From: Thermoplasmata archaeon
Lineage (GTDB): Archaea; Thermoplasmatota; Thermoplasmata; Thermoplasmatales; Thermoplasmataceae
NCBI GenBank assembly: GCA_021846395.1
Contig: JAJZXB010000002.1
Span: 124,001 to 188,000, forward strand
Direction of reading: 5' to 3'
Length of the DNA stretch: 64,000 bases
Made by a program: the position numbers and the translations under genes
Notes under the pieces: generated by a model
Seen by the model: the letters and a program-made list of their open reading frames with translations, nothing else
Databases searched by the model: none
Told to the model about the DNA's origin: nothing
Shown here: positions 17,030-33,693 of the stretch, one piece after another
Layout of the letters: every line of letters begins with the position of its first letter
How positions within the stretch are numbered: the first letter of the stretch is position 1

Positions 17030-17448
17030 TTATTTTGTATTAATTATTACTATTAATAATTATTGTCTCCAACTATTCTGAACAATCCCTTTAGAAAAAT
17101 TTCTGAAATAAATACTCGATTGAAATCTTATAAATGACTTAAAGCACGAAATCCACTGAGCTTGGGATGTGGATGAAGTCTAAATTTTATATTATTGAAT
17201 TGCATATTTTCGATATATGAAGATATAACAGCCGATAAAGCCTATAGGGGAACAGAAACATGTCTGAGAAGAATGGTGCAATCAGAAAAACCATAACGGA
17301 GACAAGAGAAAGGAGGAATTTTCAATGATTTATTTGAAGACACAAAATTTAAAAGTTACTAAAAAAGTATGTTTTTTAGAAATTATCTGCTCTATACCCA
17401 GCATAGATAGTATATAAAACTTATTATAATTTATTGTTATAATCTTAT
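17030..17448 (+). other. Intergenic region with a hairpin and mobile-element-like traces
   Basis: No gene is supported in these 419 bases. Around 17150-17185 the sequence ATCCAC-TGAGCTTGGGAT-GTGGAT followed by GAAGTC can form a hairpin like the right ends of IS200/IS605 elements. From about 17222 a short broken frame (ITADKAYRGTETCLRR) may be a leftover transposase tail. The last 40 bases (TATAAAACTTATTATAATTT) look like the promoter of the DUF488 gene. Confidence 0.4.
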
Positions 17449-18039
17449 ATGATTAATCAAAATGAAAAACATTATAGGAAACTTATTCGACAGGGAGCAA
17501 CCTATATGGTTTCACTACCTAAAGATGACCTTATTGAGTTACAATGGAAGCACGGAGACAAAATTCTTGTAGAAAAAATTGGCAAATCGATACAATTAAT
17601 GAGATCGGGGAAACCAAAAATATTTTCCATAGGATATTCGGGCAGGAAAATAAAAGATTTTATAGAAATTTTAAAGGAAAATAAAATAGATTATTTGGTT
17701 GATGTAAGAAACAATGCTTTCAGTTGGAATAAGGAATTTTCCAGAAATAATATAGTTGAAAATTTAGCAGCACATGGAATTAAATATATAAATTTGCCTA
17801 AACTGGGTGCACCAAAAGATATTCGGGTTGAAATTAAAGAATATGGAAATAGAAATAAATTTTTTGAATTATATTCTAAATGGTTACAGTTAAACATATC
17901 CTATATGAATCTTATTGATGTTTTTGCCAGGAATAACAATACAGTATTAATGTGTTTAGAAGAGGATTATAGGAATTGCCATAGGAAAGTTATAGGTGAA
18001 AAATTGGAAGAAGATGGGTATGAAGTGATTCAATTATGA
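17449..18039 (+). CDS. AbrB-like N-terminus fused to DUF488
   Basis: A 196-residue protein. Residues 8-46 look like a SpoVT/AbrB swapped-hairpin DNA-binding domain (RQGATYMVSLPKDDLIELQW then HGDKILVEK). Residues about 58-196 are DUF488, with FSIGYSGRKIKDFIEILKEN, LVDVRNNAFSWNKEFS and the family-typical VLMCLEEDYRNCHRKVIGE. DUF488 has no firm biochemical role. The stop overlaps the start of the next gene by 4 bases (ATGA), so the two are coupled. The promoter is immediately upstream and leaderless in style. The fused AbrB domain suggests that the cassette controls its own expression; that is inference. Confidence 0.82.
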   Translation: MINQNEKHYRKLIRQGATYMVSLPKDDLIELQWKHGDKILVEKIGKSIQLMRSGKPKIFSIGYSGRKIKDFIEILKENKIDYLVDVRNNAFSWNKEFSRNNIVENLAAHGIKYINLPKLGAPKDIRVEIKEYGNRNKFFELYSKWLQLNISYMNLIDVFARNNNTVLMCLEEDYRNCHRKVIGEKLEEDGYEVIQL

Positions 18040-18809
18040 ATTACGAGAAAAAAAAGGTTTTAGTTACAGTTAAGGCATATCCAGAAAAGAGTAAGAAATA
18101 TGGAGCATCTGTATGTACAGCTGGGATAACAGATCAGGGTGAATTTATTCGTCTTTATCCTATACCGTTCGAGAATTTTAGAGGGGGAAAATCGATTCCT
18201 AAATATTCCTGGATAACGGTTGAATGTAAACAGGCTTCCGAATATCTAATGAGAAAAGAAAGCTACAGGGTCAGGTATGAAAACATAAAAATCGGAGAAC
18301 AAATTACTACAAAAAATAATTGGAATGAAAGAAATAAAATTGTTCTTCCTTTACTTTCAAATTCATTGGAGGAACTTAAGAAATCCCAGAAAGATGTGCC
18401 AAAATCTCTTGGAATTATAAAACCAAAGAAAATATTGGATTTTACTATTGATGAAAAGTGGAGGCAAAACGATGATGAAGACAAAATCCTTAAAGGAATA
18501 CAATTAACTCTAGATGGGGAAGAGAGAACCAAACTGGAAAATATACCATATAACTTTAGGTACCAATTTTATTGTGATATAGATGAGTGTAGTGGACATA
18601 ATATTATGTGTGAAGATTGGGAAATGTTGCAGGCGTGGAGAAGTTGGAAGCAGAAATATAAAGATAGGGATAAATTGGTGGAAAAATTCAAGAAAAAATT
18701 TTATTATGATATGATAGAAAACAAAGATCTATATTTTTTCTTAGGAACACATTCTCAATTTAATACATGGATAATAATTGGCCTCTACTACCCTCCCAAA
18801 ATCAAATAA
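18036..18809 (+). CDS. Uncharacterised partner of DUF488 protein
   Basis: A 257-residue soluble, lysine-rich protein. I do not recognise a named domain with confidence. The N-terminus (VLVTVKAYPEKSKKYGASV then CTAGITDQGEFIRLYPIPF) has a beta-rich look, and a Cys/Trp-rich stretch follows near residues 178-205 (YCDIDECSGHNIMCEDWEML). The C-terminus has FFLGTHSQFNTWIIIGLYY. Translation is coupled to the AbrB-DUF488 gene. From memory, proteins with this N-terminal pattern do occur beside DUF488 genes in other prokaryotes, which would make a two-gene module, but I cannot confirm that here. Confidence 0.75.
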   Translation: MNYEKKKVLVTVKAYPEKSKKYGASVCTAGITDQGEFIRLYPIPFENFRGGKSIPKYSWITVECKQASEYLMRKESYRVRYENIKIGEQITTKNNWNERNKIVLPLLSNSLEELKKSQKDVPKSLGIIKPKKILDFTIDEKWRQNDDEDKILKGIQLTLDGEERTKLENIPYNFRYQFYCDIDECSGHNIMCEDWEMLQAWRSWKQKYKDRDKLVEKFKKKFYYDMIENKDLYFFLGTHSQFNTWIIIGLYYPPKIK

Positions 18810-19140: not shown

Positions 19141-19358
19141 TCAAAACAGGTTATAACCAAATGGGCTTGCCATCGTAGAATGGAAAAACTTTTTAACTTT
19201 TTTTGCATCTCTCAATAGGGTAATGTTTGTTATTTTCATAATTCAACCACTATCTCCATCAATTTTAATTTATCTGAAAGGGCCATTCATATTATTTTAA
19301 AAAAATATAAACAATAAAATCATGTTGTTTATAAAAAAATAGACATACGGAGAGTCTG
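19141..19358 (-). mobile_element. Truncated ISH3-like insertion sequence end (remnant A)
   Basis: The plus-strand sequence AGACATACGGAGAGTCTG at 19341-19358 matches the 18-base terminal repeat of the intact element at 20.6-22.2 kb except for one base. The next 100 bases on the minus strand follow the same untranslated leader almost base for base. A start ATG at 19239 opens a transposase frame beginning MKITNITLLRDAKKVKKFF that aligns loosely with the intact protein (MKQQITPINDIKLVKKPFY) and stops after 32 residues at 19141. So this is the left end of a diverged relative, pointing the other way; the rest is deleted or decayed. Confidence 0.75.
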
Positions 19359-19400
19359 TTTATTGTGATAACTTTAAATATCATTAAATAATTTTATCAT

Positions 19401-20030
19401 GTGTCAGAAAAGATCAAAGATTGTTTAATAGCATTAATCAAGGTTAGCAGAACTGACTGTGGTGTTACTAATTATGTAAATACTTATTTTAAAAATGTAT
19501 CAATTAAAAGAATTAAAATGATGGAAGATTTCACATTACATTGTCTTATGTTTGATAAAATAGATGAACCTGATGATAGGTTAATACAATTGAAAAAGAT
19601 ATCCAGCAACTATATAAGAGTGGGGAAAAATAAGATATGGGCTGAAGAAAAGAACTGCCATGCCTGTAATTTTTTTTTAAAATGCAATGTTGATATACTT
19701 AGCAGCAAGGTTATAGGAAATAACACCGTTATATATAGAATATTATTTCCAAATAAAAACAAGCTTAAGGATGTGGAGAGAGAAATGGAAAATGCAGATC
19801 TGAATTATCAAATTATAGAATTTTATTATTCAAATGAAGTTGAATTAACTGAAAGAGAAAAATTTGTAATAAATAAAATATTTAATGGCGGTTATTTTAA
19901 TATTAATAGAGAATTATCTTTAACAGAACTTGCAAATTCAATGGATATATCCACAGCAAGTTTATCCGAAACAATGAGAACTGCATTGAAGAAAATTGTT
20001 AAAAACTATATTGATGATAACATTAATTAA
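19401..20030 (+). CDS. Bat-type (HTH_10) transcriptional regulator
   Basis: A 209-residue protein starting at GTG 19401. The C-terminal 60 residues (LTEREKFVINKIFNGGYF and LSLTELANSMDISTASLSE) match the bacterio-opsin-activator helix-turn-helix family. The N-terminal part has a Cys cluster (NCHACNFFLKCN near residues 83-94) that could bind a metal or sense redox state. Upstream is the terminal repeat of ISH3-like remnant A, only 42 bases away; downstream is the G+C-richer strip leading to the sulfite reductase island. Regulation of the island is a reasonable guess from position only. Confidence 0.8.
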   Translation: MSEKIKDCLIALIKVSRTDCGVTNYVNTYFKNVSIKRIKMMEDFTLHCLMFDKIDEPDDRLIQLKKISSNYIRVGKNKIWAEEKNCHACNFFLKCNVDILSSKVIGNNTVIYRILFPNKNKLKDVEREMENADLNYQIIEFYYSNEVELTEREKFVINKIFNGGYFNINRELSLTELANSMDISTASLSETMRTALKKIVKNYIDDNIN

Positions 20031-20605
20031 AATAAAAAATTGTATTTGTGTAACTCCACTGGATTGGAATTTGAGCTGATATTAGAACTGTAATAATTAA
20101 ACCGACTTTGTCGAGTAGAGAGCAAGCACAGTTATTGTGAAGTATGCTAACGTGACCATGACATCACATCATGGAAGATGCCCCTCAATTCTGTTTCCAA
20201 CTCCCTCTCTAAAATTCCAGACTGGCTCATTTCGAGCGTCCGACTTCAAGTGTTGCATTTCATGTGAGATTTTCCCCTTCGGTTATATGCACACATCACC
20301 TTCCCTTCATATGACTACATAACACTGCAAGATTTCGCGTTACCCTGAACAGTTACGGTTAATAACCATTTCTGGTAATCCGTAATGCCGCATTCCTATT
20401 TGTAGGGATACACAGAGGTCATTTGCTCCTCCAGTTTGTTATCGTTGGTATCATAACTACTACGACCTCATCCGCAGAGCCATGAACAATGCGTAAGGTT
20501 GGCTTTCCGCATTCTCCTGTATCTTCTATGTTCATGGTTCATCCCTGTTTGCCCATCATACCTTGCAAATGGGCATTTTATCCTATTTGAGTGTTTCTGA
20601 ATTTG
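20031..20605 (+). other. G+C-richer non-coding stretch between regulator and ISH3 element
   Basis: About 575 bases with clearly less A+T than the surroundings and no convincing reading frame. Both strands have many stops. On the minus strand, broken fragments in changing frames (for example LECMSQSGILERELETELRG-like and LALYSTKS) suggest an old coding sequence that has decayed. The composition resembles the dsr island rather than the chromosome, so this may be the left fringe of the acquired segment. No tRNA or attachment site was seen in it. Confidence 0.4.
20601..20605. repeat. 5-bp target-site duplication, left copy (ATTTG)
   Basis: ATTTG lies directly against the outer edge of the left terminal repeat and is repeated at 22156-22160 against the right repeat. 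A 5-bp duplication fits ISH3-family transposition. Confidence 0.8.
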
Positions 20606-20623
20606 CAGACTCTCCGCATGTCT
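20606..20623. repeat. ISH3 terminal inverted repeat, left
   Basis: Eighteen bases, an exact reverse complement of 22138-22155. One-mismatch and more diverged relatives occur at 19341-19358 and 50530-50547. Confidence 0.92.
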
Positions 20624-20723
20624 AATTTTTTATAAACAGCAGGATTTTATTGTTTGTAGTTTTTTAAAATAACATGAATGACATTGTCAGATAAATTAAA
20701 ATCAATGGGGGTAATATTGAATT

Positions 20724-21890
20724 ATGAAACAACAAATCACCCCCATAAATGATATAAAACTTGTTAAAAAACCTTTTTATTTTGGAATAAGGAATATATT
20801 CAAGGATAATATACATAAACAATCCAAATATGATTCCCTTGATATACCCAGCACATTGATAAATGCGATAGGAAGAAATATGTACATAGAATCATATGTA
20901 AGGAATTACAATAATAATAGGAATATGCCATCCGCTGATACATTGTTTAGAAGGGTAAAGGATACCCATGTTGTATGCAATGATAATGAGTATGATAAGA
21001 ATTCTGGATCTGATATAATTTCAAAGATGGTTGACCTTACTGTAACCAATGCCAAATCATTGGGATTGGTTGATAAGAAGATAAATGTTGCAATAGATGA
21101 ACATGATGAGCCATATTATGGGCATAGTAATAATAAACTGATCTATACACCTTACCATAAATATAGGGGCACTGATAAGGCTTATAGGCTTGCCACAATG
21201 GAATCTGTAGACAAACCAAGAATGACACTATCAGTTATAAGGAAAATACCCTTAGACGGTATTGATTTATCAAAGGAGGTAAGATTGTTGGTTGGGCATG
21301 CTATCTCACTTGGAATAATGATAAACATACTTTTAATGGACAGGGGATATTTAAGTGCAAAGGTATTGAAGGCACTTGGCAATATGGATATTAATTATAT
21401 TATTCCCGTTAAGCTTAATAAGAAGGCAAAGAGGCTTATGGATACAAATATGAATGAATATAACAATATAAGATATTCAATAATAAAAACAGGGATATCA
21501 TCATATAAGGATAAGGCTGAAACATATTTAGTCCATGTAATATACAATAAGAATGGGAAAAAATATGATTTTGCATTCTATACAAACATGGATGCCAATA
21601 TGGATAATATAATAGAATTGGCGGAATTATATAGAAAGAGATGGTGCATAGAGAATGGATATTTGGAAAAGAAGGAATCAAAGGAGAAAACACATTCATA
21701 TACAATGTATGTAAGGTATTTCTTATATTTGCTGGCAATATTGTTGTATAATTTATGGATCCTTATAAATTGTATAATATCAATAATGGGGAAAACACAT
21801 CTTATATTCATCGATTTCCTCATATCACTGGGGAGGAGTATTAAAAGAGAGGGGAATAACAGGTATAAAATGATAAACCACAATGTATAG
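20724..21890 (+). CDS. ISH3-family DDE transposase
   Basis: A 388-residue transposase of the IS4 superfamily. The catalytic triad is Asp125 in VAIDEHDEPYY, Asp206 in LLMDRGYLSAK and Glu310 within YRKRWCIENGYLEKK, which satisfies the Y-x2-R-x3-E-x6-K signature exactly. Length is normal. It opens about 100 bases inside the left terminal repeat and is the only gene of the element. The C-terminus is hydrophobic (YFLYLLAILLYNLWILIN), as in relatives. Confidence 0.93.
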   Translation: MKQQITPINDIKLVKKPFYFGIRNIFKDNIHKQSKYDSLDIPSTLINAIGRNMYIESYVRNYNNNRNMPSADTLFRRVKDTHVVCNDNEYDKNSGSDIISKMVDLTVTNAKSLGLVDKKINVAIDEHDEPYYGHSNNKLIYTPYHKYRGTDKAYRLATMESVDKPRMTLSVIRKIPLDGIDLSKEVRLLVGHAISLGIMINILLMDRGYLSAKVLKALGNMDINYIIPVKLNKKAKRLMDTNMNEYNNIRYSIIKTGISSYKDKAETYLVHVIYNKNGKKYDFAFYTNMDANMDNIIELAELYRKRWCIENGYLEKKESKEKTHSYTMYVRYFLYLLAILLYNLWILINCIISIMGKTHLIFIDFLISLGRSIKREGNNRYKMINHNV

Positions 21891-22137
21891 CTTATAGAAT
21901 ATAGAAATTGATTCTATTCTATATAATTCCAGTAATTGTTGATAATTATATATTATAGCGATAACTATGTAAAATTGCTCTTTAGGCCATAACAATATAC
22001 CATTGATATACCAATAATACCCGTTCATATGTAGTTTATAATGCTAAATAATAACAAATTATTATAGAGATTATAATAATTTTGATGATTTATTGTAAAA
22101 TAATTGAAAATACCAATCCATCATTTAAAATATTTTA

Positions 22138-22155
22138 AGACATGCGGAGAGTCTG
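22138..22155. repeat. ISH3 terminal inverted repeat, right
   Basis: Eighteen bases, an exact reverse complement of 20606-20623. The 245 bases between the transposase stop and this end are AT-rich and non-coding. Confidence 0.92.
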
Positions 22156-22160
22156 ATTTG
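22156..22160. repeat. 5-bp target-site duplication, right copy (ATTTG)
   Basis: Identical to 20601-20605 and adjacent to the right terminal repeat. Confidence 0.8.
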
Positions 22161-22376
22161 ACAAATTCAATATAAAAGAAAGAAATATTTTAAAAATATT
22201 GAATCATTTTATCTATGGTCGCCATAGGATATTCGTGGTTATTCCGGATCCTACACAACTATCAAGATGCCCAGTAAAACCCAATGAATTGGTGGATTAA
22301 AAAAAATTTGGACTTCCGTTAAAACCGATAAATTTTTATGTAATAAACACTATCTAATATTAGAGGTGCATAAGAT
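22161..22376 (+). promoter_or_regulatory. Upstream region of dsrC with ribosome-binding site
   Basis: This leader lies between the ISH3 element and dsrC. A TATA-like AAATTTTTATG is near 22330 and a GAGGTG ribosome-binding site sits about 9 bases before the ATG at 22377. A clear Shine-Dalgarno site contrasts with the leaderless genes around the island. Confidence 0.5.
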
Positions 22377-22715
22377 ATGGAAGATGATACTAAAGAAAAG
22401 AAGCATGTTGTCAACGGAAAAGAGATAGGTCTTGACGAAGATGATTTCATGCAGGATCCGGAGCAGTGGGATAAGGATGTTGCAAAGTGGCTGGCGAAAG
22501 AATATGCAGGGGTCAGTGAGATGACAGAAGAACACTGGAAATTGGTAAATTATCTCAGACAGTACTGGGAAACTTTTGGAGTCTGTCCCCCAATTAAAAT
22601 TATCACGAAGAATACTGGGCTGACTCTTGAGAGGATGTACGAGCTGTTTCCTGATGGACCGGCTCATGGTGCGTGCAAGGTGTCTGGTGCTCCAAAACCA
22701 ACTGGCTGTGTTTAA
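22377..22715 (+). CDS. dsrC: DsrC, sulfur carrier of dissimilatory sulfite reduction
   Basis: A 112-residue protein of DsrC/TusE fold. The typical core FMQDPEQWDKDVAKWLAKEY, LTEEH-like MTEEHWKLVNYLRQYW and GVCPPIKIITKNTG are present. The flexible C-terminal arm carries both conserved cysteines, Cys100 and Cys111, spaced C-x10-C with the second being the penultimate residue. Both cysteines are needed for the trisulfide made by DsrAB, so this is a true DsrC rather than a one-cysteine TusE-like protein. It is the first gene of the island and is followed by sirC on the same strand. Confidence 0.95.
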   Translation: MEDDTKEKKHVVNGKEIGLDEDDFMQDPEQWDKDVAKWLAKEYAGVSEMTEEHWKLVNYLRQYWETFGVCPPIKIITKNTGLTLERMYELFPDGPAHGACKVSGAPKPTGCV

Positions 22716-22835
22716 TTTTGGTTGCGTAAACTGATGTCGCGTTTCAATGCACTGGTACATAGAAATGCATAGATCTGGAAGTATATCTTCAACAATATCT
22801 GAGGCCGATGCACATGAACATACAGGGGGATTATC

Positions 22836-23483
22836 TTGAGCTATATCCCCGTAATGTTAAATGCCTCAAATAAAAAAATACTGATAATTGGGGGGAGCAA
22901 GATCGCTGCTCGGAAAGCAAGAAGTTTACTTCCATACTGTAACAAAATAATAGCTATATCAGAGGAATTCTCAAGAGATTTTGATGGTCTTCCTGTCAAC
23001 ACGATAAGATCGATAGTTGAAGATGTGGATCTGAATGCCCTTATAGATCGGGACACAATCGTTATAATTACAACGGAACTGAAACATTTGAACAGATCAA
23101 TCGAGGATCTGTGTGATGAGAAAGGGGCTTTATACAATAGGGTAGATGACAGATCTAGCCCCATTATATTTCCAGCTATCTCAGAAATTAATGGTACTAC
23201 TGTAACAGTATCCACTTCGGGAAAATCTCCATCCCTTGCAAAGTTTCTCAGAGACCTCCTGTCCAGAGAAGCAGGAAAATATGTTATTGCACTGCCAGTT
23301 GTCGAACGCCTGCGAAAAGATGTATTGATCAGTAAAATTGATATGAAAGGAAAGTTCTTCGAGACCCTCTTCAATGACAGAATTTTTTGGGATCTCATAA
23401 CGGCAAATAAGCCCAATGAAGCATATACACAGGGGATTGAAATCTCAGAGAGACTTTCAAAAAAATATAAAAGTAAAAAATGA
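22836..23483 (+). CDS. sirC: Precorrin-2 dehydrogenase / sirohydrochlorin ferrochelatase-type protein
   Basis: A 215-residue protein similar to the N-terminal half of CysG/Met8. It has the NAD-binding KKILIIGGSKIAARKARSLL at residues 13-32, then ALYNRVDDRSSPIIFPAISE, and TTVTVSTSGKSPSLAKFLRD. It oxidises precorrin-2 to sirohydrochlorin on the way to sirohaem, the DsrAB cofactor. The start is TTG at 22836, chosen because GGGGGAT lies 5 bases upstream and the resulting N-terminus matches the family. Uroporphyrinogen III methyltransferase is not in the window, so earlier steps must be encoded elsewhere. Confidence 0.88.
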   Translation: MSYIPVMLNASNKKILIIGGSKIAARKARSLLPYCNKIIAISEEFSRDFDGLPVNTIRSIVEDVDLNALIDRDTIVIITTELKHLNRSIEDLCDEKGALYNRVDDRSSPIIFPAISEINGTTVTVSTSGKSPSLAKFLRDLLSREAGKYVIALPVVERLRKDVLISKIDMKGKFFETLFNDRIFWDLITANKPNEAYTQGIEISERLSKKYKSKK

Positions 23484-23528
23484 TGGCTATATTATGATTT
23501 TAAGTTTACAGAAATTCCCGTCTTGCCT

Positions 23529-23903
23529 TTAGCTCCATGATAGTACTATATCTGCATTCTCCGCATATAAATAGAAAGATGCTATCCCGCCTATTTCTGC
23601 CCCTTCTATAACGTCACTTTCCGCTATACCGAAAGTCTGGGCTGACGCAGAGCACACATGCATCATTACACCGTCCGCAAGGCAATCATTTATTCCGTTC
23701 CTGATTTTAAAATCCATCTTTTCAAATATCTGCCTCTTCGCCACTAGTGCACTGTCAAGAGCGTAAAATATGAGTATTTCGTAATCCATTGCGGCCGCAG
23801 CTCTTGCATATCCGAGCATGGTCTCTATCCTTGCCGTATCACCAGGTGCTATGGTGGAGAAGAACGCAATTTTCTTCTTCTGGTCTTCGTTGTGTTCTGT
23901 CAA
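23529..23903 (-). CDS. DsrE-family sulfurtransferase-like protein (second of pair)
   Basis: A 124-residue DsrE/DsrF-like protein starting at TTG 23903, chosen because AAAGGGGGAT sits about 8 bases upstream; the frame stays open further but overlaps the previous gene. The likely persulfide cysteine lies in VMMHVCSASAQTFG, followed by GAEIGGIASFYLYAENADIV, the C-terminal pattern of the family. It is 14 bases downstream of a paralogue. Proteins of this type shuttle persulfide sulfur with TusA and DsrC. Confidence 0.85.
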   Translation of the reverse strand: MTEHNEDQKKKIAFFSTIAPGDTARIETMLGYARAAAAMDYEILIFYALDSALVAKRQIFEKMDFKIRNGINDCLADGVMMHVCSASAQTFGIAESDVIEGAEIGGIASFYLYAENADIVLSWS

Positions 23904-23917
23904 GAATCGATCCCCCT

Positions 23918-24367
23918 TTAGATAAATAGTGTTATTGCACTTGGATCCGAGGCCCATTCAAGGAATGTTGCAGCTCCAACCACATCAATCTGAGGAAGAA
24001 TTAGGTTCTCCTTCGTCGTTCCAAATAGCTGCATAGTAGGAGAACAGGCATTGATGTGAACACCCGCATCCGCTGCCATCTTTAGCATCTCGTCTACTGT
24101 TGGTAGCCCACCTTTTGACACGAGGGCTTTCAGCTCCTCAGATGTGATTCCCAAATCTTTTGAAGGTACTACCGTTTCGTTTTGCCCTCGAGTAAGGAAC
24201 TTCATTCCACCAAAGGTGAAATACATAAAAACCTCCATTCCTTGTGAAGCTGCTGTGGTGGCTAATATAAGGGCCGGATATGCAGCATCCGATGTTCCCT
24301 TGCTTATGACCATTACAAGCTTGTCCTTGAGTGCTTTTCCCCCTTTTCCTCTTTCTTCTTCTGTCAT
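23918..24367 (-). CDS. DsrE-family sulfurtransferase-like protein (first of pair)
   Basis: A 149-residue DsrE/DsrF/DrsH-like protein. The fold starts at residue 16 (LVMVISKGTSDAAYPALILA) and the candidate reactive cysteine is in VHINACSPTMQLFG, the same position as in its neighbour. The C-terminus VVGAATFLEWASDPSAITLF is typical. The first 15 residues are a charged extension. It is transcribed away from tusA, with 87 bases between them that should hold two promoters. In acidophilic archaea such as Metallosphaera, tusA is also grouped with dsrE-type genes. Confidence 0.87.
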   Translation of the reverse strand: MTEEERGKGGKALKDKLVMVISKGTSDAAYPALILATTAASQGMEVFMYFTFGGMKFLTRGQNETVVPSKDLGITSEELKALVSKGGLPTVDEMLKMAADAGVHINACSPTMQLFGTTKENLILPQIDVVGAATFLEWASDPSAITLFI

Positions 24368-24454
24368 ATTATATAAAACATCATATTATATATAAAGCTC
24401 AACCCTTACATATGAGGGCAATTATTTAATAATAACTATAAGGTTATATTTAGC
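24368..24454. promoter_or_regulatory. Divergent promoter region between dsrE pair and tusA-dsrABMK
   Basis: An 87-base AT-rich spacer between divergent units. ATATTATATATAA reads as a TATA-like element toward the dsrE pair on the minus strand, and ATTTAATAATAACTATAAGG lies about 30 bases before the tusA ATG on the plus strand. Confidence 0.5.
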
Positions 24455-24688
24455 ATGGCAAAAGACAACAAGAATTTTGATTTTAGAGGATTAAGATGTC
24501 CTGCACCAATATTGGAAACAAGCAAGATTATGAAAGACCTGAATGTTGGGGATATTGCCATTATAATGGCGAATGACCCCGCCGCGAAATCGGATTTTCA
24601 GGCATGGTGCAGGAGGACGGGAAATACCTTGGTTGAGATCAATGAAAAAGGTAACGACATAGAGCTAAGAATAAGAAAGGAGCATTGA
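24455..24688 (+). CDS. tusA: TusA-family sulfur carrier
   Basis: A 77-residue protein of normal TusA length. The sulfur-carrying cysteine is Cys15 in RGLRCPAPILETSK, the diagnostic CPxP motif. It starts the plus-strand unit tusA-dsrA-dsrB-dsrM-dsrK, 22 bases before dsrA. TusA passes persulfide sulfur to DsrE-type partners and ultimately to or from DsrC. Its presence with two DsrE-like genes suggests that sulfur trafficking is integral to this reductase system. Confidence 0.93.
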   Translation: MAKDNKNFDFRGLRCPAPILETSKIMKDLNVGDIAIIMANDPAAKSDFQAWCRRTGNTLVEINEKGNDIELRIRKEH

Positions 24689-24710
24689 TCTGAGTTCTGG
24701 AGATGAAAGG

Positions 24711-25931
24711 ATGAAAACCGATTCAAATCATCAAAATGGCAAACTTACAGGCATAGAGATGCTTGAGTATTACGAGAAAGGACCGTGGCCAAGCCACGTC
24801 AATGAAATGAAAAAAACAGCTTATCCGCTGGAAGTGTATGCCAGTGGATTAGAAACAAGAGCGTCACCATGGTTCGGAGGTTCTGCGAAGGTCAGGTATG
24901 TCTATGTTGGGTTTATAGCCAGAAGAAGTAAGGACGGTAAGAACACTGAATTGCATTTCAGGGTGTTCCAGCCCTCCGGTCAGATCTATAGAACAGAGAC
25001 GCTTAGAAAGCTTCTTGATTTTTCAGACAAATATGGGCTCGGATTGCTTCAGGTGATGGGACAAACAGGCGGTTTGATCATATCTATCGATCCAGAAAAA
25101 GCTGATGAAGCGGTTGATGCCCTCCGATCTCTGGGAACCGACATAGGCGATACAGGAGACACATTCAGGGACTTTGCATCATGTATTGGGCCGGCACTTT
25201 GCGAGTATTCTCTGTTTAACACTCTAGAAGCCCGTGATTACTACCTCTCCTATCCTCCAATCTATGAAAAGATATCCAATCAGTTGTTTCCATTCAAGGT
25301 GAAGCTTAAGTTCAGCGGATGCCCAATGGATTGTTCAAGGGCAGTCCATCGTGCTGATTTTGGTTTTATCGGGACATGGGAAGGGGCACCTGAAGTCGAT
25401 CAGGCGCTTCTTAAAGATAAGGATAAATCCGGACAAATATCCATGGAAGATCTTGCAAGGAACTGTCCATCAAGCTCTATAAATGTCAGTGTTTCTGGAG
25501 ATCTTAGCATAGATCCCGAAAAATGCGAGAAGTCCATGAATTGCATCAAACGTGCGTTTCCTGCAATCAAACCGGGAAAGACAAGAAAAATTGCATTCAT
25601 GGCAGGTGGAAATATCAAGGGAAGATTCGGCCCCAAGATGGCAAAACCAGTTGCGTTGCTTGATGATTACAAACAGGCTGAAGTCTTTATTACGAGTGTT
25701 ATAGATCGGTGGGAGGAAAATTATCCACACAAGGACAGGATCGGAGATATGCTTGCTAAGGAGGGTTTTTCGCGTGTAGTTGAGGCCCTCAAGGAAACAC
25801 TTCCTGTTGCACCGAATGGCAAACCTTCCGGACAGACAAGGATCATAGACAGTGCTGTATTAAGCGATGAGGAGAGGGATCTCTACGCAACATGGTCCAG
25901 AAAGATCATGGATGAATATAGAGGTGCTTGA
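24711..25931 (+). CDS. dsrA: Dissimilatory sulfite reductase alpha subunit
   Basis: A 406-residue subunit. The N-terminus has the characteristic LEYYEKGPWPSHV. The sirohaem/4Fe-4S ligands are Cys158 and Cys164 (CIGPALC, C-x5-C) and Cys204 and Cys208 (GCPMDC, C-x3-C). The inserted ferredoxin domain spans about residues 240-300 with Cys252, Cys272 and Cys278; the position expected to hold a further cysteine is Ser275 (KCEKSMNC), so one cluster ligand is missing. Length is typical. A GGAGATGAAAGG ribosome-binding site precedes the ATG. With DsrB it reduces sulfite to a DsrC-bound trisulfide in the cytoplasm. Base composition is richer in G+C than the chromosome around it. Confidence 0.95.
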   Translation: MKTDSNHQNGKLTGIEMLEYYEKGPWPSHVNEMKKTAYPLEVYASGLETRASPWFGGSAKVRYVYVGFIARRSKDGKNTELHFRVFQPSGQIYRTETLRKLLDFSDKYGLGLLQVMGQTGGLIISIDPEKADEAVDALRSLGTDIGDTGDTFRDFASCIGPALCEYSLFNTLEARDYYLSYPPIYEKISNQLFPFKVKLKFSGCPMDCSRAVHRADFGFIGTWEGAPEVDQALLKDKDKSGQISMEDLARNCPSSSINVSVSGDLSIDPEKCEKSMNCIKRAFPAIKPGKTRKIAFMAGGNIKGRFGPKMAKPVALLDDYKQAEVFITSVIDRWEENYPHKDRIGDMLAKEGFSRVVEALKETLPVAPNGKPSGQTRIIDSAVLSDEERDLYATWSRKIMDEYRGA

Positions 25932-25932
25932 A

Positions 25933-27045
25933 ATGCCGGATCTTTCTGAAAGAATGAAAAAGAAACTTCCGATACCTTATACTGATTTTCTCCCCGTTCA
26001 GATTGGAGATAATGTTGGAAAGTGGGTGGATAGAAGGTTTCACGGGCATGGAATAGTTGAACACATATCTTCCTCAGGCGACCATATTTTCACTGTCAAG
26101 GTTGGTTCACCAGCAAATGTGAGGTTCAGTACGGATACACTAAGAAAGTTTAATAAAATTGAGGATGAGTATGGCATTGGGTCATTAAGGTTCACCAGGT
26201 CTGGAAACGTGGAACTCATTGCTGATTCTCTGGACAAGGCTGAGAAGCTTAAGGATGAGGTCGAAAAGATAGGGTTTTACGTTGGAGGATGGGGGAATAC
26301 CCTCTGGTCAATATCATCATGCACTGCATACCTCACATGCACGACTGCTGTCATAGACTCTCCATCCCTAACTAAGGTGCTGTACGACAATTTTTACCGC
26401 TATTTCACGGGCGAGGAGGAACTTCCTACTAAATTAAAGATTAGTGTTGGTGGATGCCCTACAAGCTGTGGTGGGCTTGTTGCAGATCTGGTTCTGGTTG
26501 GCCACTATGGCGATGCCCCCTCATACGATCCAGAGAGGATAGGTTTATGCCTCCCAAGAAAAGCCGAGGCCCTGGATGTCGCCGTGCCGGAAATCGTAAA
26601 TGTGTGCCCTGTTGGTGCTATAGATGCTTTCAAGAAAGATGACAATACCGTCGGAATAAACATAAAAAGGGAGAAGTGCATTGCATGCGGTAGATGTAAA
26701 GATGTATGTGACCATATAATCTTCGATCCAGATAAGTCCGGGGTTGCGATCATGGTTGGGGGGAAGAGCAGCAACACAGGTTCTGGCCCTGAGCTTGCCA
26801 GAGTACTGATCCCCTGGGTCCCGGTAACACTTCCTGCATATGGGGAGATTGTAGCCGTAGTGAGAAAGATCATAGATATATGGAAGAAAAACGCAAGTGA
26901 TGGCGAAAGACTTGGAGACTACGTGAGAAGAATTGGGCTCTCCAATCTGCAAGAGGCGATGCATATTCCTGTAACCAAGTGGAACAGAACTGGATTTGGA
27001 AAGTCCACCTTTGGCATCAGGCAATTTCAGGAGAGAGGTGCGTAA
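25933..27045 (+). CDS. dsrB: Dissimilatory sulfite reductase beta subunit
   Basis: A 370-residue subunit starting at ATG 25933 with GAGGTG 6 bases upstream; only one base separates it from the dsrA stop. Sirohaem/cluster cysteines are Cys130 and Cys136 (CTAYLTC) and Cys175 and Cys179 (GCPTSC). The ferredoxin domain has Cys225 (NVCPVGAID) and the run Cys249, Cys252, Cys255, Cys259 in CIACGRCKDVC. The C-terminus KWNRTGFGKSTFGIRQF is typical for the family. Bacterial DsrB proteins, as I recall them, use a double-cysteine CCx3C; here a single C-x3-C with a preceding C-x5-C is seen, so the protein is divergent. Confidence 0.94.
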   Translation: MPDLSERMKKKLPIPYTDFLPVQIGDNVGKWVDRRFHGHGIVEHISSSGDHIFTVKVGSPANVRFSTDTLRKFNKIEDEYGIGSLRFTRSGNVELIADSLDKAEKLKDEVEKIGFYVGGWGNTLWSISSCTAYLTCTTAVIDSPSLTKVLYDNFYRYFTGEEELPTKLKISVGGCPTSCGGLVADLVLVGHYGDAPSYDPERIGLCLPRKAEALDVAVPEIVNVCPVGAIDAFKKDDNTVGINIKREKCIACGRCKDVCDHIIFDPDKSGVAIMVGGKSSNTGSGPELARVLIPWVPVTLPAYGEIVAVVRKIIDIWKKNASDGERLGDYVRRIGLSNLQEAMHIPVTKWNRTGFGKSTFGIRQFQERGA

Positions 27046-27842
27046 TGGATTATGCCATCGCATTTATTCTGTTCCTGATTCTTCCATACTTTGCGCTATT
27101 ATCATTTATCATAGGGATAATATACAGAATATATTCCTGGATGCATGTCCATGGGCTAACCGCCCTTAGATCTGTTTCCTTGATACCCAATTCTTTTGGA
27201 ATAAGGGACATTTTTGTTGATTTGGTGAAGAGGGTAACTACCTTTCACACCCTAAGAAAAATGGAAAAGGATACTCCATTGACCGTTGGAGCAATGATGT
27301 TTCACTATGGCATATGGATATCCCTACTTGGTCATATTGCTATGATTGTTCCACTTCCTATCTCCCTGAAGGTTCATGAGATGATTGCCCTGTATATCGG
27401 AGCCCCAGCAGGCATATTAGCCGCCGTGGGTCTCTTGATCCTAATATTCCGGAGAATTTTTGTCGGAAAAATGCGAAAAATCAGCAGTCTTGAGGATTAC
27501 TTTATCTCTTTCCTGCTCATATCTGTTATAATATTTGGCATTGTCCAAACCCTGTATATAAGGCCGAATTTCATGGCGACCGTTTCCCCATGGCTTATCT
27601 CTATATTTCAGTTTCATCCGGAAGTTGCAACCATGACATCGGTGGGATTAGTAACGATAGTACACATCACGCTTGCCTTCCTGTTCATAGCATGTATACC
27701 ATATACAAAAATGATACACATCATATCTTACTTGTTTCAACCAACTATAACAAAAAAGAGTTTCAGTGTTCAGGCTAAGGTGGAGGATATCAAAGGAGGG
27801 GTGTCTACACCCGCGAAGGAGGTTGGTGACAGTGGCCGATAA
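27045..27842 (+). CDS. dsrM: DsrM, membrane cytochrome b subunit
   Basis: A 265-residue membrane protein of the nitrate-reductase gamma/DsrM type with five hydrophobic helices. Histidines suited to haem b binding lie in MMFHYGIWISLLGHIAMI, KVHEMIALYIG, VTIVHITLAF and MIHIISYLF. It oxidises menaquinol and passes electrons to DsrK. The ATG at 27045 overlaps the last base of the dsrB stop (TAATG) and follows a GAGAGAGGTG ribosome-binding site. A longer upstream frame overlapping dsrB is not used. The C-terminal tail overlaps dsrK by 11 bases. Confidence 0.92.
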   Translation: MDYAIAFILFLILPYFALLSFIIGIIYRIYSWMHVHGLTALRSVSLIPNSFGIRDIFVDLVKRVTTFHTLRKMEKDTPLTVGAMMFHYGIWISLLGHIAMIVPLPISLKVHEMIALYIGAPAGILAAVGLLILIFRRIFVGKMRKISSLEDYFISFLLISVIIFGIVQTLYIRPNFMATVSPWLISIFQFHPEVATMTSVGLVTIVHITLAFLFIACIPYTKMIHIISYLFQPTITKKSFSVQAKVEDIKGGVSTPAKEVGDSGR

Positions 27843-29223
27843 GATCGTGTTTACGTACGGAGACACCTCCGATTTCCGTTCAAATTGGGCTAATGATGCA
27901 CTGGTGGAGAAGTTGCACAAGAACGTTAATGTTTCCGCCTGTGATTCTCGGCTTGAGTCATTCATGGAAAAGATTGTAGAGGCAACAGCCAACAATAGAA
28001 ACGTCAAAATGGCGATGGAAGTCTGCATACATTGTGGAGCTTGTCTCAATGCCTGTCCCACATTTTTATCATCTGGAGACATTCGAAACTCACCCGTTGG
28101 ACGCGGAGATCTTATACGCAACCTCAACAAGTCCAGGAAGTTTTCAGGAAAAGTGTTTGGTAAGCTTGTCGGTTCTGTTTCACTGGATCAGGAGTATTTT
28201 GATACCATATCAACTTACTACTATCAGTGCCTTGAATGCCGTAGGTGCGGAGAAATCTGTCCGTTCGGAGTTGATCAAGCCGATGTCACCAGAACTGTCA
28301 GATCCGCTCTTCATGATGTGGGGAAAATCTCCAGATATACTGCTACCGTTATAGACAACGTGGAAAGGACAGGCAACAATATGGCACTCCCTCCTGCGGC
28401 GCTCAAATCCACAATAGAGTTTGCCAGAGATGAGATAAAGGAGGAAAAGAACATTGACCTAAAGATCAAGATCGATGAGCCAGCAGATGCAATGCTTGTT
28501 CCACCCTCTGCAGATTTCTTCAGCAACATAGAGACTTTGAAGGGTTACATGCTATTTCTCCATGTCATGGGCATAGACTATACTTTCACAACGGAACATG
28601 CCGAACTGGCCAACTTTGGGCTGTTTTCTGATTACAAACACATGGGAATAATAGCAGACCATCTCACCGAGGTTGCAAAAAAGAATGGTGTGAAGACCGT
28701 CATTGCGGGAGAGTGTGGCCATGGGTGGAGAGCTTTCAAGAACCATGTGATTCCAAAACTTGAGAAACAGGGAATCAAAGGTGTCCACATATTCCATCTT
28801 GTAGAGGATTCCATAAGGTCCGGAAAATTACCTCTTGATCCTAGCGTGAATGACGGAAAATCCTATGTTTACCAGGACCCGTGTAATTACGCGAGGGGAG
28901 GAGATCTGATAAACGAGCCAAGGTACATTCTCTCTAAAGTAGTTTCAGAATACAAGAATTCCCCACATTCCAGGGAACGGACATGGTGTTGTGGCGGTGG
29001 CGGGGGCCTTCTCAGTGATGAACTCCTACCGCTCAGAACTGAATACGCAAAGCTATGGTATAACGATGCACGTTCCGTGGGTGGAACACATGTTATAAGG
29101 CCCTGCGCAATTTGCAAAGCACAGATGAGCCATACTCTGCCAAGTCTGAACAAGACCTATTCAGACAGTGTTACCTCTTCAGGATTGATGGACCTGGTCT
29201 ACACTGCGATCCCGGGGGTATAA
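27832..29223 (+). CDS. dsrK: DsrK, HdrD-like iron-sulfur subunit
   Basis: A 463-residue protein with two 4Fe-4S motifs, Cys65-68-71-75 (CIHCGACLNACP) and Cys133-136-139-143 (CLECRRCGEICP). The C-terminal half has the CCG-type non-cubane cluster residues: VIAGECGHGWR, YQDPCNYARG and Cys386-Cys387 in TWCCGGGGGLL, plus RPCAICKAQM. This is the catalytic subunit that reduces the DsrC trisulfide. The start is GTG 27832, with GGAGGT about 7 bases upstream; an earlier GTG at 27826 is too close to that site. dsrJ, dsrO and dsrP are absent, so the complex is the simple DsrMK form. Confidence 0.93.
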   Translation: MADKIVFTYGDTSDFRSNWANDALVEKLHKNVNVSACDSRLESFMEKIVEATANNRNVKMAMEVCIHCGACLNACPTFLSSGDIRNSPVGRGDLIRNLNKSRKFSGKVFGKLVGSVSLDQEYFDTISTYYYQCLECRRCGEICPFGVDQADVTRTVRSALHDVGKISRYTATVIDNVERTGNNMALPPAALKSTIEFARDEIKEEKNIDLKIKIDEPADAMLVPPSADFFSNIETLKGYMLFLHVMGIDYTFTTEHAELANFGLFSDYKHMGIIADHLTEVAKKNGVKTVIAGECGHGWRAFKNHVIPKLEKQGIKGVHIFHLVEDSIRSGKLPLDPSVNDGKSYVYQDPCNYARGGDLINEPRYILSKVVSEYKNSPHSRERTWCCGGGGGLLSDELLPLRTEYAKLWYNDARSVGGTHVIRPCAICKAQMSHTLPSLNKTYSDSVTSSGLMDLVYTAIPGV

Positions 29224-29287
29224 TTTTTGATCATACAAAAGAGAGAGGTATTGGAGCGGAGTTGAGTTACAATCACCTATGAGGGCT

Positions 29288-30751
29288 TCATGGGGAATCT
29301 TCGAAGTCATACTGGTGACCCAGAGATGCTTTTCCTGCTAGTTTGGAAACAAAGTCGTACACGTCCGGGTGAAGATGCATATAATGAGCGTATGTGTTTC
29401 TGACGAGTATTCCATCTGCACCTGCCTTGATTCCACTTCCCTTCTCATGCGAGAGCATGAAATTGTACTCCCTGCCCAGCAGGATCCTCGAATAGTGAAA
29501 TTCATGCCCTCTCAAAATCTCACCCTTATCTGCTATTGGAGTCTCATGCACTACCTTCGCAATGGAATAGCCATGCGCCACGGGTTTATTGCTGACTGTG
29601 GCAGTACCATCTATTATTCCGATCATATCGAATTCGTTGTTGTTAAAAACTATAGAATTTGTGAGATACATTAACCCACCGCATTCAGCGTATATGAGTC
29701 CCCCCTTTTCAGAAAATGTCCGAATGGATTTCGCGAGTGACCGGTTCTTCTCCAATGATTCAGCGTAAATCTCCGGAAATCCGCCACCAATCAGCAGGAC
29801 ATTAATTCCTGTCAGGTCTGAATCTTTCTCAGCATTAATGAATCTAATATTTCCATACGAACTTGCCTTTTCTATTGTTTCTGGATAGTAAAATGAGAAA
29901 GCCCTTCCGCCGATGATGCCAAAATTCACAGAGTGTGGGGTTGGGTTATCCTGGAGTTTATGCGACTGGATCGAAAGTTCTCTTGAGTATTCTTTCGCTC
30001 CTGAAATTATTTCTGGAATGTTTATTGATGGGTTCTCGTACTCGCGAAGAAAATCGTTGATAGATGAGCCACCAGTCTCTCCAACAGGAATCAAGCCCAG
30101 GTGCCTGTAGCTCATCATTCTTTCGAGTTGCTGGTCCCTGTATATTGCTCCAAGAACAGGTACGCCCTCCTTCTCAATCACATTCTTGATCTTTTCATAT
30201 TGTCTTGGAATTACATCTGTCAGCACGACTCCCATTATCTTTAATTCTGTATCGTAGTTTACCATTCCCCTTACTATCGCACCGAGTGTTCTGTTGGTTT
30301 TAGATCCATTTAATGTCAGGAGAACCGGAGCTTTCAGCTCCTTCGCCAGTTGAGCAGTACTTCCCAGTTCTGAGATTCCATCCACACTGTCATATAACCC
30401 ATGGTTGCCTTCTATTAGTGAGATATCGGATCCAGACGAATATCTCATAAACCTCTCTTTCAAGGAATCACCCATCAGAAAGAAATCAAGGTTTCTTGAA
30501 TAGTTTCCTGTGACCATCTGATGATACCCTGGATCTATGAAATCTGGTCCGTTCTTGAAGACGCTCACGCTGTATCCTTTTCTGATCAGTTGCCTCAGGA
30601 GGACCATTGTGACGAGCGTTTTACCGGATTTGCCTTTCGTAGAGGATATTATGATTCTTGGCACGTTTGTGATATCCTTACCACTGTAATTTGATGAAAA
30701 CCTGTTTTTACTAATTTCGGGCCAACTCTTTCTTAAACTAATCTCTGACAT
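29288..30751 (-). CDS. dsrN: CbiA-like sirohaem amidase DsrN
   Basis: A 487-residue protein of the cobyrinic acid a,c-diamide synthase family. The ATP-binding part begins RIIISSTKGKSGKTLVTM and includes KNGPDFIDPGYHQ; the glutaminase half has the cysteine in IYAECGGLMYLTN and the histidine in RGHEFHYS. In sulfite reducers the dsr-linked copy (DsrN) amidates sirohaem, and no other cobalamin gene is near, so DsrN is preferred over CbiA. The start at 30751 has AAGGAG 8 bases upstream; ATG codons at 30802 and 30853 are alternatives. It is convergent with dsrK and marks the right end of the G+C-richer island. Confidence 0.88.
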   Translation of the reverse strand: MSEISLRKSWPEISKNRFSSNYSGKDITNVPRIIISSTKGKSGKTLVTMVLLRQLIRKGYSVSVFKNGPDFIDPGYHQMVTGNYSRNLDFFLMGDSLKERFMRYSSGSDISLIEGNHGLYDSVDGISELGSTAQLAKELKAPVLLTLNGSKTNRTLGAIVRGMVNYDTELKIMGVVLTDVIPRQYEKIKNVIEKEGVPVLGAIYRDQQLERMMSYRHLGLIPVGETGGSSINDFLREYENPSINIPEIISGAKEYSRELSIQSHKLQDNPTPHSVNFGIIGGRAFSFYYPETIEKASSYGNIRFINAEKDSDLTGINVLLIGGGFPEIYAESLEKNRSLAKSIRTFSEKGGLIYAECGGLMYLTNSIVFNNNEFDMIGIIDGTATVSNKPVAHGYSIAKVVHETPIADKGEILRGHEFHYSRILLGREYNFMLSHEKGSGIKAGADGILVRNTYAHYMHLHPDVYDFVSKLAGKASLGHQYDFEDSP

Positions 30752-31160
30752 GGTTTCTTCTCCTTTGGACAGCTTTTTTAGATTATTCGAGGAATTTAAC
30801 ATATTCATACCCCCCTTTCTGTTTTTCAATCCACTTATTTTTAAATTCTTCATTCCCTATAGCTATTTCAAACTCATTAGGGGAAAGATAATTCAGTGAA
30901 AGAATGTAGCCCCCACTAAATTATTGCCCTTTACAGCCCAATCCATATAATCCTGAAATTTATTATATATATTGAATTCTTTTATGTATATATAGTCTTC
31001 TTTGAATTCCATGGCAATAATTTCCCGTTAGAATTTTCCAATAATAATTACAATCAGGTAAAATATTGTACGAGCATATTATGCAAAAAAACATTATCCA
31101 AGTTCACTGTGTATATTGACAACAATTAATCATTTATACAATAACATTATATGCTTGTGA
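30752..31160 (+). other. Intergenic region at the right border of the dsr island
   Basis: No gene is supported. Composition switches back to very AT-rich between about 30800 and 30870. The first 100 bases hold alternative dsrN starts (a GGGGGG site at about 30809-30814 on the minus strand). TTATATATATTGAATTC near 30962 could be a promoter of dsrN. The last 30 bases contain the promoter of the next plus-strand gene. No terminal repeat, tRNA or duplication that would mark an attachment site was found. Confidence 0.5.
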
Positions 31161-31874
31161 ATGAACTTTAAAAGTTTTCTGATTAAACACAACAGAATAT
31201 TTATCCCAGTAATATCCATAATACCAGCGGTGTTGATTTTTTACCTATCTGTTTATATTCCTGAGTTACTATTATTGATATTTGCAATACCTGTAATCAT
31301 ATTTCTTTTAATGCACTTTCTTAATATCTACAAATTCAAGCCCCGATTATACGGGGGGTTGGTGATATTATTAATTGTGCTTTTAATTGCATCTGGATTT
31401 TATACAAATTCTCTGTATTCATCTGGAGGTACCTCTCATACTACAGTGGATGGAGCATATATGGAAACAAGTATCTCCCCATTTACAGAATACAGTGGAA
31501 AATACAATATAACAGCATTGACAAACTACACTGGCTCTTTAAAAAACGCAAGCATAGCAATAGTCTCATTAACTCACAGCCAGGTGGAACATTATAATTC
31601 ATCATATGCCATTAAAAAGAATGGTTACAGTGGGTTTTATTTAAATATAAAATTACAGCCTGGCATTTACAGAGTGTATTTTAACATTACCACGAATACA
31701 GGCAAGAATATCAGTATGGAAAGCATAGGGCCATTAAATGTAAGTGAATTTACAATGTATGAATACTATATATTTGCCACGGCATTCAAATACATCATAT
31801 CGATCGGCATACTCTATATTGCAGGTATCAGCATAGCTTATTTTATGCAAAGAGGGGCATTAAATAATAAATAA
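31161..31874 (+). CDS. Membrane protein with sequon-rich external loop
   Basis: A 237-residue protein of unknown function. Three hydrophobic helices occupy residues about 12-85, followed by a roughly 115-residue polar region and one last membrane helix (YIISIGILYIAGISIAYF). The polar region contains seven N-x-S/T sequons (NIT, NYT, NAS, NSS, NIT, NIS, NVS), so it is probably outside the cell and glycosylated, as in other wall-less acidophiles. ATG follows directly after a promoter-like stretch, in leaderless style. No family name is offered. Confidence 0.75.
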   Translation: MNFKSFLIKHNRIFIPVISIIPAVLIFYLSVYIPELLLLIFAIPVIIFLLMHFLNIYKFKPRLYGGLVILLIVLLIASGFYTNSLYSSGGTSHTTVDGAYMETSISPFTEYSGKYNITALTNYTGSLKNASIAIVSLTHSQVEHYNSSYAIKKNGYSGFYLNIKLQPGIYRVYFNITTNTGKNISMESIGPLNVSEFTMYEYYIFATAFKYIISIGILYIAGISIAYFMQRGALNNK

Positions 31875-31943
31875 ATTTAAACTAAAATAAATATAAACTA
31901 CCATAATACATATTTATATATAGTTTAATTGCTTATATATAAC

Positions 31944-32915
31944 ATGTCTTCAATAAGAAAAATACAATTAACCGGCGGGTCCACGTATATAGTTTCATTA
32001 CCATCAAAATGGGTTAAAAATAATAATTTAACCAGAAGCAGCGAGGTCAAGGTTGAAGAATCAAACAACAGGTTGATACTTTATGGCAATTCTGATGTCA
32101 AAACTGAAATAAATAAACGCCTGACACTCAGTAATAAAATGGAGCCAAAAAACTTGCAGAGGGTGTTGATATCACTTTATATTTCCGGCTATGATACCCT
32201 GACAATCAGAAGCATCAATTATATAGATGATAATACGCGTGAAACAATCAAAAAATTTTCAAAACTTGTTATTGGAATAGAAATATTTGAAGAAGATGCA
32301 AAAAGGATTGTTTTGCAAAACGTTTTAAATTCAAGTTCGTATCCCATATATAATTCCATAAAAAGAATGTCCTTAAACGTTGAATCAATGATTTCAGATG
32401 TTATTGAGGGGATAAAATCAAGGGATAGGGAATTGCTGAAAAATGTGATAATCCGGGATGATGAAATTGACAGATTTCAATGGTATATATATCGTGAAGT
32501 AAAGGCAAAGAGCTGTGAGGATAGCAACAGTATTTTTTACCTGCTACTGTCAAGAATTCTGGAAAGGGTAGCGGACCATTCAGTTAACCTGTGCAATATT
32601 TGGATGGATACAGGTAAAATTGATGAAAGAACCATGAATAAAACTGTTGAGAATATAAAAACTGTTCTTGACCAGTTCAAAAAATCAATGTCACTTTTTT
32701 ACTCAAAAAAATATATTGGACTCAATGATATAATATCCGGAAAAAAACTTATTTTAAAGGATAAAAAAGAATTGCTTGACCTTGCAAATCCAGAGAGCAT
32801 AACAGTCATTTCATTTTCTTCTGAAGAAATTTCAAGGATAGGGTTATATTCAACTGATATAGCGGAACTTGCAATGGATATGATATTTTCAACATCAAAT
32901 GAAATGGAATTGTGA
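31944..32915 (+). CDS. AbrB-PhoU phosphate-uptake-type regulator
   Basis: A 323-residue protein. Residues 1-45 form a SpoVT/AbrB-like DNA-binding domain (RKIQLTGGSTYIVSLPSKWV). The rest is helical with PhoU features (IRDDEIDRFQWYIYREVKA and RILERVADHSVNLCNIWMD). Archaeal fusions of this kind are annotated as phosphate uptake regulators. A TTG 15 bases earlier keeps the frame open, but ATG 31944 lies about 25 bases after TTTATATATAG, as expected for a leaderless transcript. Its 3' end overlaps the end of rpiA by 21 bases. No phosphate transporter is nearby. Confidence 0.85.
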   Translation: MSSIRKIQLTGGSTYIVSLPSKWVKNNNLTRSSEVKVEESNNRLILYGNSDVKTEINKRLTLSNKMEPKNLQRVLISLYISGYDTLTIRSINYIDDNTRETIKKFSKLVIGIEIFEEDAKRIVLQNVLNSSSYPIYNSIKRMSLNVESMISDVIEGIKSRDRELLKNVIIRDDEIDRFQWYIYREVKAKSCEDSNSIFYLLLSRILERVADHSVNLCNIWMDTGKIDERTMNKTVENIKTVLDQFKKSMSLFYSKKYIGLNDIISGKKLILKDKKELLDLANPESITVISFSSEEISRIGLYSTDIAELAMDMIFSTSNEMEL

Positions 32916-33578
32916 CTTTTTTATATTTTTTATGTGGCATTCACCATTCCTGCCTTCAAATATTCTTGTTGTGATGTTTTTAAATATGCCAACCTCAACA
33001 ACTCCAGGAATCATTTTTATTTTTTCTTCCAGGTCCGTATGTGTATAATCAAATTTGCAATCGATAATATAATTCCCATTATCGCTTTTGAAATTTTTAT
33101 TATCCCTGAATGTTGCTTCACATCCCAGTTTTTCAATATTCAATTTTGTTTTTTCTTCCATAAATGGTAAAATCTCAACGGGCAATGGAAATTTATGCAA
33201 TTTTTCCGAGAATTTTGAGCTGTCAACCATGATAAATACCATTTTGCTGTTATATGCAACAATTTTTTCCCGTACAAGAGCACCTCCGCCACCTTTAATT
33301 AAATTTCCTGAAGAGTCATATTCATCTGCCCCATCAAAATCAATGTCAATGCTGTCAAGATTGCTGAATGTCTGAATGCCATATGAGTTGACAAGTTTTT
33401 CTGTTTTTTTTGATGTTGGAACTCCGGTAATATTTTTTAATTCACCGCTCTTTACCTTTTCTCCCAGTGCTTCAAGAAAAAATTCAGTTGTTGATCCTGT
33501 ACCCAGACCGAGTTTCATATTGCTCTGAACATATTTTAACGCTTCAATTGCAGCCACTTTCTTTTCATTTTCATACAT
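32895..33578 (-). CDS. rpiA: Ribose-5-phosphate isomerase A
   Basis: A 227-residue enzyme that interconverts ribulose 5-phosphate and ribose 5-phosphate. Clear motifs are LGLGTGSTTEFFLEALG, IDFDGADEYDSSGNLIKGGG with the substrate-binding aspartates, GGALVREKIV and LPVEILPF. Length is normal. It serves nucleotide synthesis together with PRPP synthetase and ribokinase, which also occur in the window but are not in the same operon. Confidence 0.95.
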   Translation of the reverse strand: MYENEKKVAAIEALKYVQSNMKLGLGTGSTTEFFLEALGEKVKSGELKNITGVPTSKKTEKLVNSYGIQTFSNLDSIDIDFDGADEYDSSGNLIKGGGGALVREKIVAYNSKMVFIMVDSSKFSEKLHKFPLPVEILPFMEEKTKLNIEKLGCEATFRDNKNFKSDNGNYIIDCKFDYTHTDLEEKIKMIPGVVEVGIFKNITTRIFEGRNGECHIKNIKKSQFHFI

Positions 33579-33693
33579 AAAACGATGATACTGTTTTTAT
33601 AATTAATTTTTATTCTTTTAATGTTTTAATATATAAAATAGCTTGTGTAACTATTTTGCTGTAAATTTGTAATACCTTCATGCCACTATTAAT

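Follow-up and report, generated by a model that had tools for sequence, protein, structure and literature searches.

Probable horizontal gain of a minimal archaeal dissimilatory sulfite reductase system by a Thermoplasmatales archaeon

How did a compact set of genes for dissimilatory sulfite reduction come to lie in the genome of a Thermoplasmatales archaeon, and what would it do there? This question is raised by a cluster at 22.38-30.85 kb of the window, i.e., the stretch of 64,000 nucleotides analyzed here, where dsrC, a sirC-like gene and two dsrE-like genes are found together with tusA-dsrA-dsrB-dsrM-dsrK and dsrN (Table 1). All dsr genes named in an initial annotation of this DNA were recovered at the place given there, and they match their families: DsrC (5e-31), DsrA (8e-90), DsrB (1e-100), DsrK (3e-92), DsrM (NarI/DsrM type; 1e-18) and the CobB-type DsrN (7e-118). 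Further family matches identify TusA, two DsrE/DsrE2 proteins and one precorrin-2 dehydrogenase domain. The DsrM and DsrK scores do not reach the curated NCBIfam cut-offs, as is to be expected of a divergent archaeal type. From dsrA to dsrK, consecutive frames overlap or abut. The extent originally assigned to the island, 22377-30751, is right with respect to the gene set, but its end falls inside dsrN, the frame of which continues to 30853. Moreover, the segment that is missing from a congener is larger than this island (17074-31118; see below). A tRNA-Gln predicted by ARAGORN (26744-26825) is situated inside dsrB and found no confirmation in Rfam at the curated cut-off; it was taken as a false positive.

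Table 1. Features of the segment, with positions in the window
Feature	Coordinates	Strand	Remarks
Dispersed host-genome repeat, left segment edge	17128..17318	.	dozens of genome copies
DUF488 gene and 257-aa gene	17449..18809	+	host-like composition
HTH_10 (Bat-like) regulator	19401..20030	+	relocated host-genus gene
Insertion sequence (IS), ~1.55 kb	20606..22158	+	terminal inverted repeats CAGACTCTCCGCATGTCT; transposase 20724-21890
3' DUF302 scrap	22159..22207	+	gene that follows HTH_10 in G225
dsrC	22377..22715	+	both C-terminal cysteines kept (GACKVSGAPKPTGCV)
sirC-like precorrin-2 dehydrogenase	22836..23483	+	siroheme synthesis; domain match
dsrE-like sulfur carrier a	23529..23957	-	family match
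dsrE2-like sulfur carrier b	23918..24367	-	family match
tusA	24455..24688	+	family match
dsrA	24711..25931	+	siroheme motif CX5C...CX3C intact; ferredoxin site CxxSxxC
dsrB	25912..27045	+	siroheme motif and CX2CX2C ferredoxin site intact
dsrM, NarI-type cytochrome b	27045..27842	+	five histidines invariant across relatives
dsrK, HdrD-like	27826..29223	+	cysteine-rich domain C...CCG...CxxC
dsrN, CobB-type siroheme amidase	29288..30853	-	family match

The whole segment 17074..31118 (14.05 kb) is missing from the genome G225, the closest congener compared (LysRS 90% identical). The flanks are contiguous in G225 with ~34 bp between them; the left flank (14279-17073) corresponds to L040 5454-2665 (90%) and the right flank (31119-33618) to L040 2630-131 (86%). 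Both junctions are located within one intergenic spacer, which is unbroken in G225. Because of this empty site, and because dsrB is missing also from a second congener, G182, and from most of the family, a gain in the lineage of the window is a simpler reading than a loss in G225, although G225 could instead have lost the segment. A repeat common to both segment edges was looked for and not found. The foreign G+C of the island (see below) and the multi-copy repeat at the segment's left edge would also be compatible with a chimeric contig, to which the island was joined by an assembly or binning error. However, the two junctions share a spacer that is contiguous in the congener, the right edge showed no repeat, and the left part of the segment contains DNA specific to the genus as well as an IS that has relatives in the host. 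In addition, the contig is a single piece of 199.5 kb, and the island occurs at near identity in no other genome among the 117 of the order. We consider a chimera very improbable.

The composition of the island also points to a foreign origin. The G+C content of 22377-30751 is 0.435 (43.5%) compared with 33.8% in the genome, and it exceeds the maximum of 0.409 among 232 windows of 8.4 kb (mean 0.337, s.d. 0.020) from a background of ~390 kb of the source genome, bearing out the earlier impression that the island is richer in G+C. For every dsr gene but sirC, GC3 reaches at least the 97th percentile, and the codon use of the dsr genes is an outlier, with sirC the least so. In G+C, the island resembles the dsr loci of G378, G255 and G210 (0.417-0.442), unlike the host (0.338). 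The window has a second G+C peak, which corresponds to the 23S rRNA gene (53797-56706). The suggested contrast in Shine-Dalgarno sites between island and neighbors is weak; although dsrC, dsrM and dsrK each have a good site upstream, under one rule a site of at least 4 nt is present in six of the ten island genes compared with 34% of the background genes.

The left 5.1 kb of the segment, on the other hand, has a G+C content of 0.304 and is not foreign in composition. The 257-aa gene next to the DUF488 gene is patchy within the order, being present in 9 of 117 genomes. The HTH_10 gene is 79% (amino acids) and 86% (nucleotides) identical to a copy in G225, where it precedes a DUF302 gene and then an acyl-CoA dehydrogenase gene; in G182, the HTH_10 gene likewise adjoins the acyl-CoA dehydrogenase gene. 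In the window, the IS, which has relatives in the host genome, sits in the DUF302 gene with ATTTG at each side and the gene is reduced to scraps flanking it, the last of which ends near 22207. The foreign block proper begins directly after this scrap, near 22.2 kb. The IS debris reported to the left of the island is real, and a single insertion now contains both the dsr block and host DNA that came from elsewhere. Because rearranged host sequence makes up these left 5 kb, the block may first have landed elsewhere. Further to the left, at 13746-14159, a C-terminal TnpB-type fragment (Cas12f1-like TNB domain) is likely left over from an IS605-type element.

HTH_10 proteins with three invariant cysteines are encoded near dsrC in the window and at L043, L052, L054, L055, L056 and L058; the HTH_10 profile is present at these seven dsr loci and at no position in ~390 kb of host background. 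HTH_10 as a dsr-specific regulator was nevertheless rejected. The family is present in 70 of the 117 genomes of the order (the best scores in this search are biased, as the model was made from dsr-linked copies), and the 79%-identical copy resides in a dsr-free genome, G225. Hence, the gene is a relocated native gene. It is conceivable, but doubtful, that an IS-linked rearrangement placed the cysteine-bearing HTH_10 of the host beside dsrC after arrival of the block and that HTH_10 took over dsr control. If true, such a takeover would repeat the arrangement with HTH_10 near dsrC at six other Thermoplasmatales dsr loci.

Within the order, dsrAB is present in 14 of the 117 genomes and is of two types; in a 400-genome sample of the class, 18 genomes have strong DsrB matches. 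The window type (DsrB 59-70% identity) is found in G378, G255, G210 and four genomes of the family f15 (one UBA61), while the second type, e.g., in ARK-15, is near 40% identical to the window, and the two distant types occur in one family. The gene order tusA-dsrABMK with divergent dsrE genes is seen also in G378, G255 and G210. Outside the phylum, Vulcanisaeta and a Thermoproteales MAG (named GTDB contigs) are 59-62% identical to the window. As a separate observation, locus L060 of a Thermoproteales MAG (CALJAK010000007.1) carries two different dsrAB copies within ~9 kb. The scan for viral carriers returned no dsrB.

In a concatenated DsrAB tree, the window groups with G378 plus G210 and with G255 (99/98 and 97/98), and is next joined by f15 (100/99) and then by Thermoproteota copies. 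This clade of the window is composed of eight Thermoplasmatota only and lies beside Vulcanisaeta-type copies, a composition that could suggest that the cluster was present in the family ancestor and was lost from most lineages. The initial annotation had raised such grouping with a vertical Thermoplasmata lineage as an argument against transfer; the window does group with Thermoplasmatota, but the pattern is not that of vertical descent. G378, from the family of the window, and G210, from another family, pair at 100/100 (G378 is 77% complete, and binning could affect its placement). Moreover, a tree that keeps the Thermoplasmataceae copies together is rejected both within the window type (a cost of 87 log units, p-AU 3e-74) and over both types (990 units, p-AU 1e-62), in support of transfer between members of the order. 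Vertical descent is also at odds with the small fraction of genomes having dsrAB, the two distant types in one family, the still donor-like G+C and codon use and the clean empty site in the sister genome G225; it appears quite improbable. As a yardstick of transfer, the LysRS identity to G378 and G255 (48-58%) contrasted with that of DsrB (68-70%) is suggestive; it is not decisive, because LysRS and DsrB differ in rate.

Collectively, the empty site, the foreign composition, the patchy distribution and the DsrAB tree against family monophyly support the horizontal gain of a minimal module as first proposed. We find it very probable that this Thermoplasmatales archaeon gained a minimal archaeal sulfite-reduction system from an unsampled archaeon. 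The donor would have had ~42-46% G+C and the same DsrAB type, and was most likely another Thermoplasmatota; the closest candidates are only ~68-70% identical.

With respect to function, the cysteines of the siroheme-[4Fe-4S] site, CX5C...CX3C, are complete in DsrA and DsrB, the genes of which are adjacent. The ferredoxin site of DsrA deviates from CX2CX2C and reads CxxSxxC in the window and in the seven nearest Thermoplasmatota. Its second cysteine is replaced by Ala in Vulcanisaeta (CxxAxxC) and is kept in the second type, in Thermocladium and in Archaeoglobus. Since Vulcanisaeta is a genus with known Dsr-based reducers, CX2CX2C in DsrA does not define the wider family. To judge from these residues, cluster ligation at the DsrA ferredoxin site must differ in the clade of the window and Vulcanisaeta.

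In the source genome, which is 97% complete such that a gene might have been missed, there is no PF01747 match for sat, the best match for aprA reaches 31 bits compared with a cut-off of 642, and no [NiFe] hydrogenase was found. The absence of sat and aprA noted for the window therefore extends to this whole genome, which does not have the sat and aprA pair of a sulfate reducer, and this makes sulfite, not sulfate, the likely acceptor. In other Thermoplasmata, sat and aprA are found on the dsrAB contig, ~4-36 kb away (G148:C6, G324:C32, G096:C4 and G161:C12; loci L052, L055, L050 and L048). Because they share a contig with dsrAB, there may be sulfate reducers in the order and class.

The gene content predicts a system of DsrABCMK and DsrN, accompanied by TusA, two carriers of the DsrE-like kind and a gene for siroheme synthesis. 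In this model, DsrAB would reduce sulfite (SO2/bisulfite) and the product would be loaded onto DsrC as a trisulfide. DsrMK would regenerate DsrC using quinol electrons, which are suggested to come from organic substrates, with release of sulfide. DsrN and SirC would provide amidated siroheme, the precursor of which would be supplied by the host, as its genome has its own uroporphyrinogen methyltransferase (SUMT) gene. TusA and DsrE-like carriers are used in sulfur oxidation too, and under acidic conditions SO2 is toxic. The presence of these carriers and the toxicity of SO2 would thus suit a main role in sulfur oxidation (reverse Dsr) or in the removal of toxic sulfite instead of sulfite respiration. 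The reverse Dsr pathway is marked by DsrL and a DsrEFH trio; two DsrE-like proteins are encoded in the cluster. However, in a tree without a bacterial oxidative-type reference, DsrAB groups with the archaeal reductive branch. Oxidation would also lack its usual route from sulfite to sulfate via APS, as sat and aprA are missing, and DsrMK, which suits electron transport, is retained. A main role in oxidation or detoxification is unlikely on balance, even though detoxification and respiration involve the same chemistry and cannot be separated by sequence. Archaeal Dsr has been described as solely reductive (PMC10591310).

The view in the initial annotation that Dsr-type sulfite reduction is not known from this group does not hold, given the 14 genomes with dsrAB and published reports of Dsr in Thermoplasmatota (PMC12948486, PMC7174415, PMC9326234, PMC10591310). 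The minimal archaeal set has been defined as DsrABCMK(N) (PMC10504309). Thermoplasmatota DsrAB forms two clades, with transfers involving Thermoplasmataceae (PMC12948486); a Thermoplasmatales MAG with dsrAB and aprAB has been described (PMC9326234), and in Lutacidiplasmatales dsrAB is present in one genome only (PMC9287336). Compared with the systems in PMC12948486, the enzyme is alike, as are the host families as far as the names match, and transfers within the phylum were already inferred there; in the present case, a single transfer can be traced to an empty site whose edges are defined to the base. The DsrA filter used in that study is CX2CX2C, which is missing in DsrA of the window, and the window type may or may not be included. 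Enrichments with Diaforarchaea produced sulfide from sulfite and not from sulfate (PMC7174415). These YNP-TEG Diaforarchaea resemble the system predicted here in the use of sulfite without sulfate activation and in having archaeal DsrABC, but their DsrA is reported with CX2CX2C (PMC7174415) instead of CxxSxxC.

Vulcanisaeta and other Thermoproteota share 59-62% DsrB identity with the window, and together with it they form a fully supported clade that leaves out the second Thermoplasmatota type; the altered second ferredoxin cysteine of DsrA is a further likeness to Vulcanisaeta. In contrast, their DsrA is only 45-52% identical and the gene order is another. Archaeoglobus DsrAB (PDB 3mm5) belongs to the same protein family and has the siroheme-site cysteines of DsrA, but it is distant (E-values of 2e-46 and 3e-51) and, unlike the window, comes from a sulfate reducer with a full DsrA ferredoxin site.

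Since Thermoplasmatota DsrAB and its transfer have been described, the finding is one more case of a known phenomenon; this group was already known to carry the system, and the window is a clear, well-resolved added example. Transfers of archaeal dsr genes have mostly been inferred from trees. Here, the transfer is visible as a physical insertion, through the empty site of a congener, the contrast in composition and a left edge of host mobile DNA. This supports the idea that archaea of the group pass on sulfite respiration to one another as a compact block, and two close relatives, of which one has the block and the other lacks it, constitute a pair for growth comparison.
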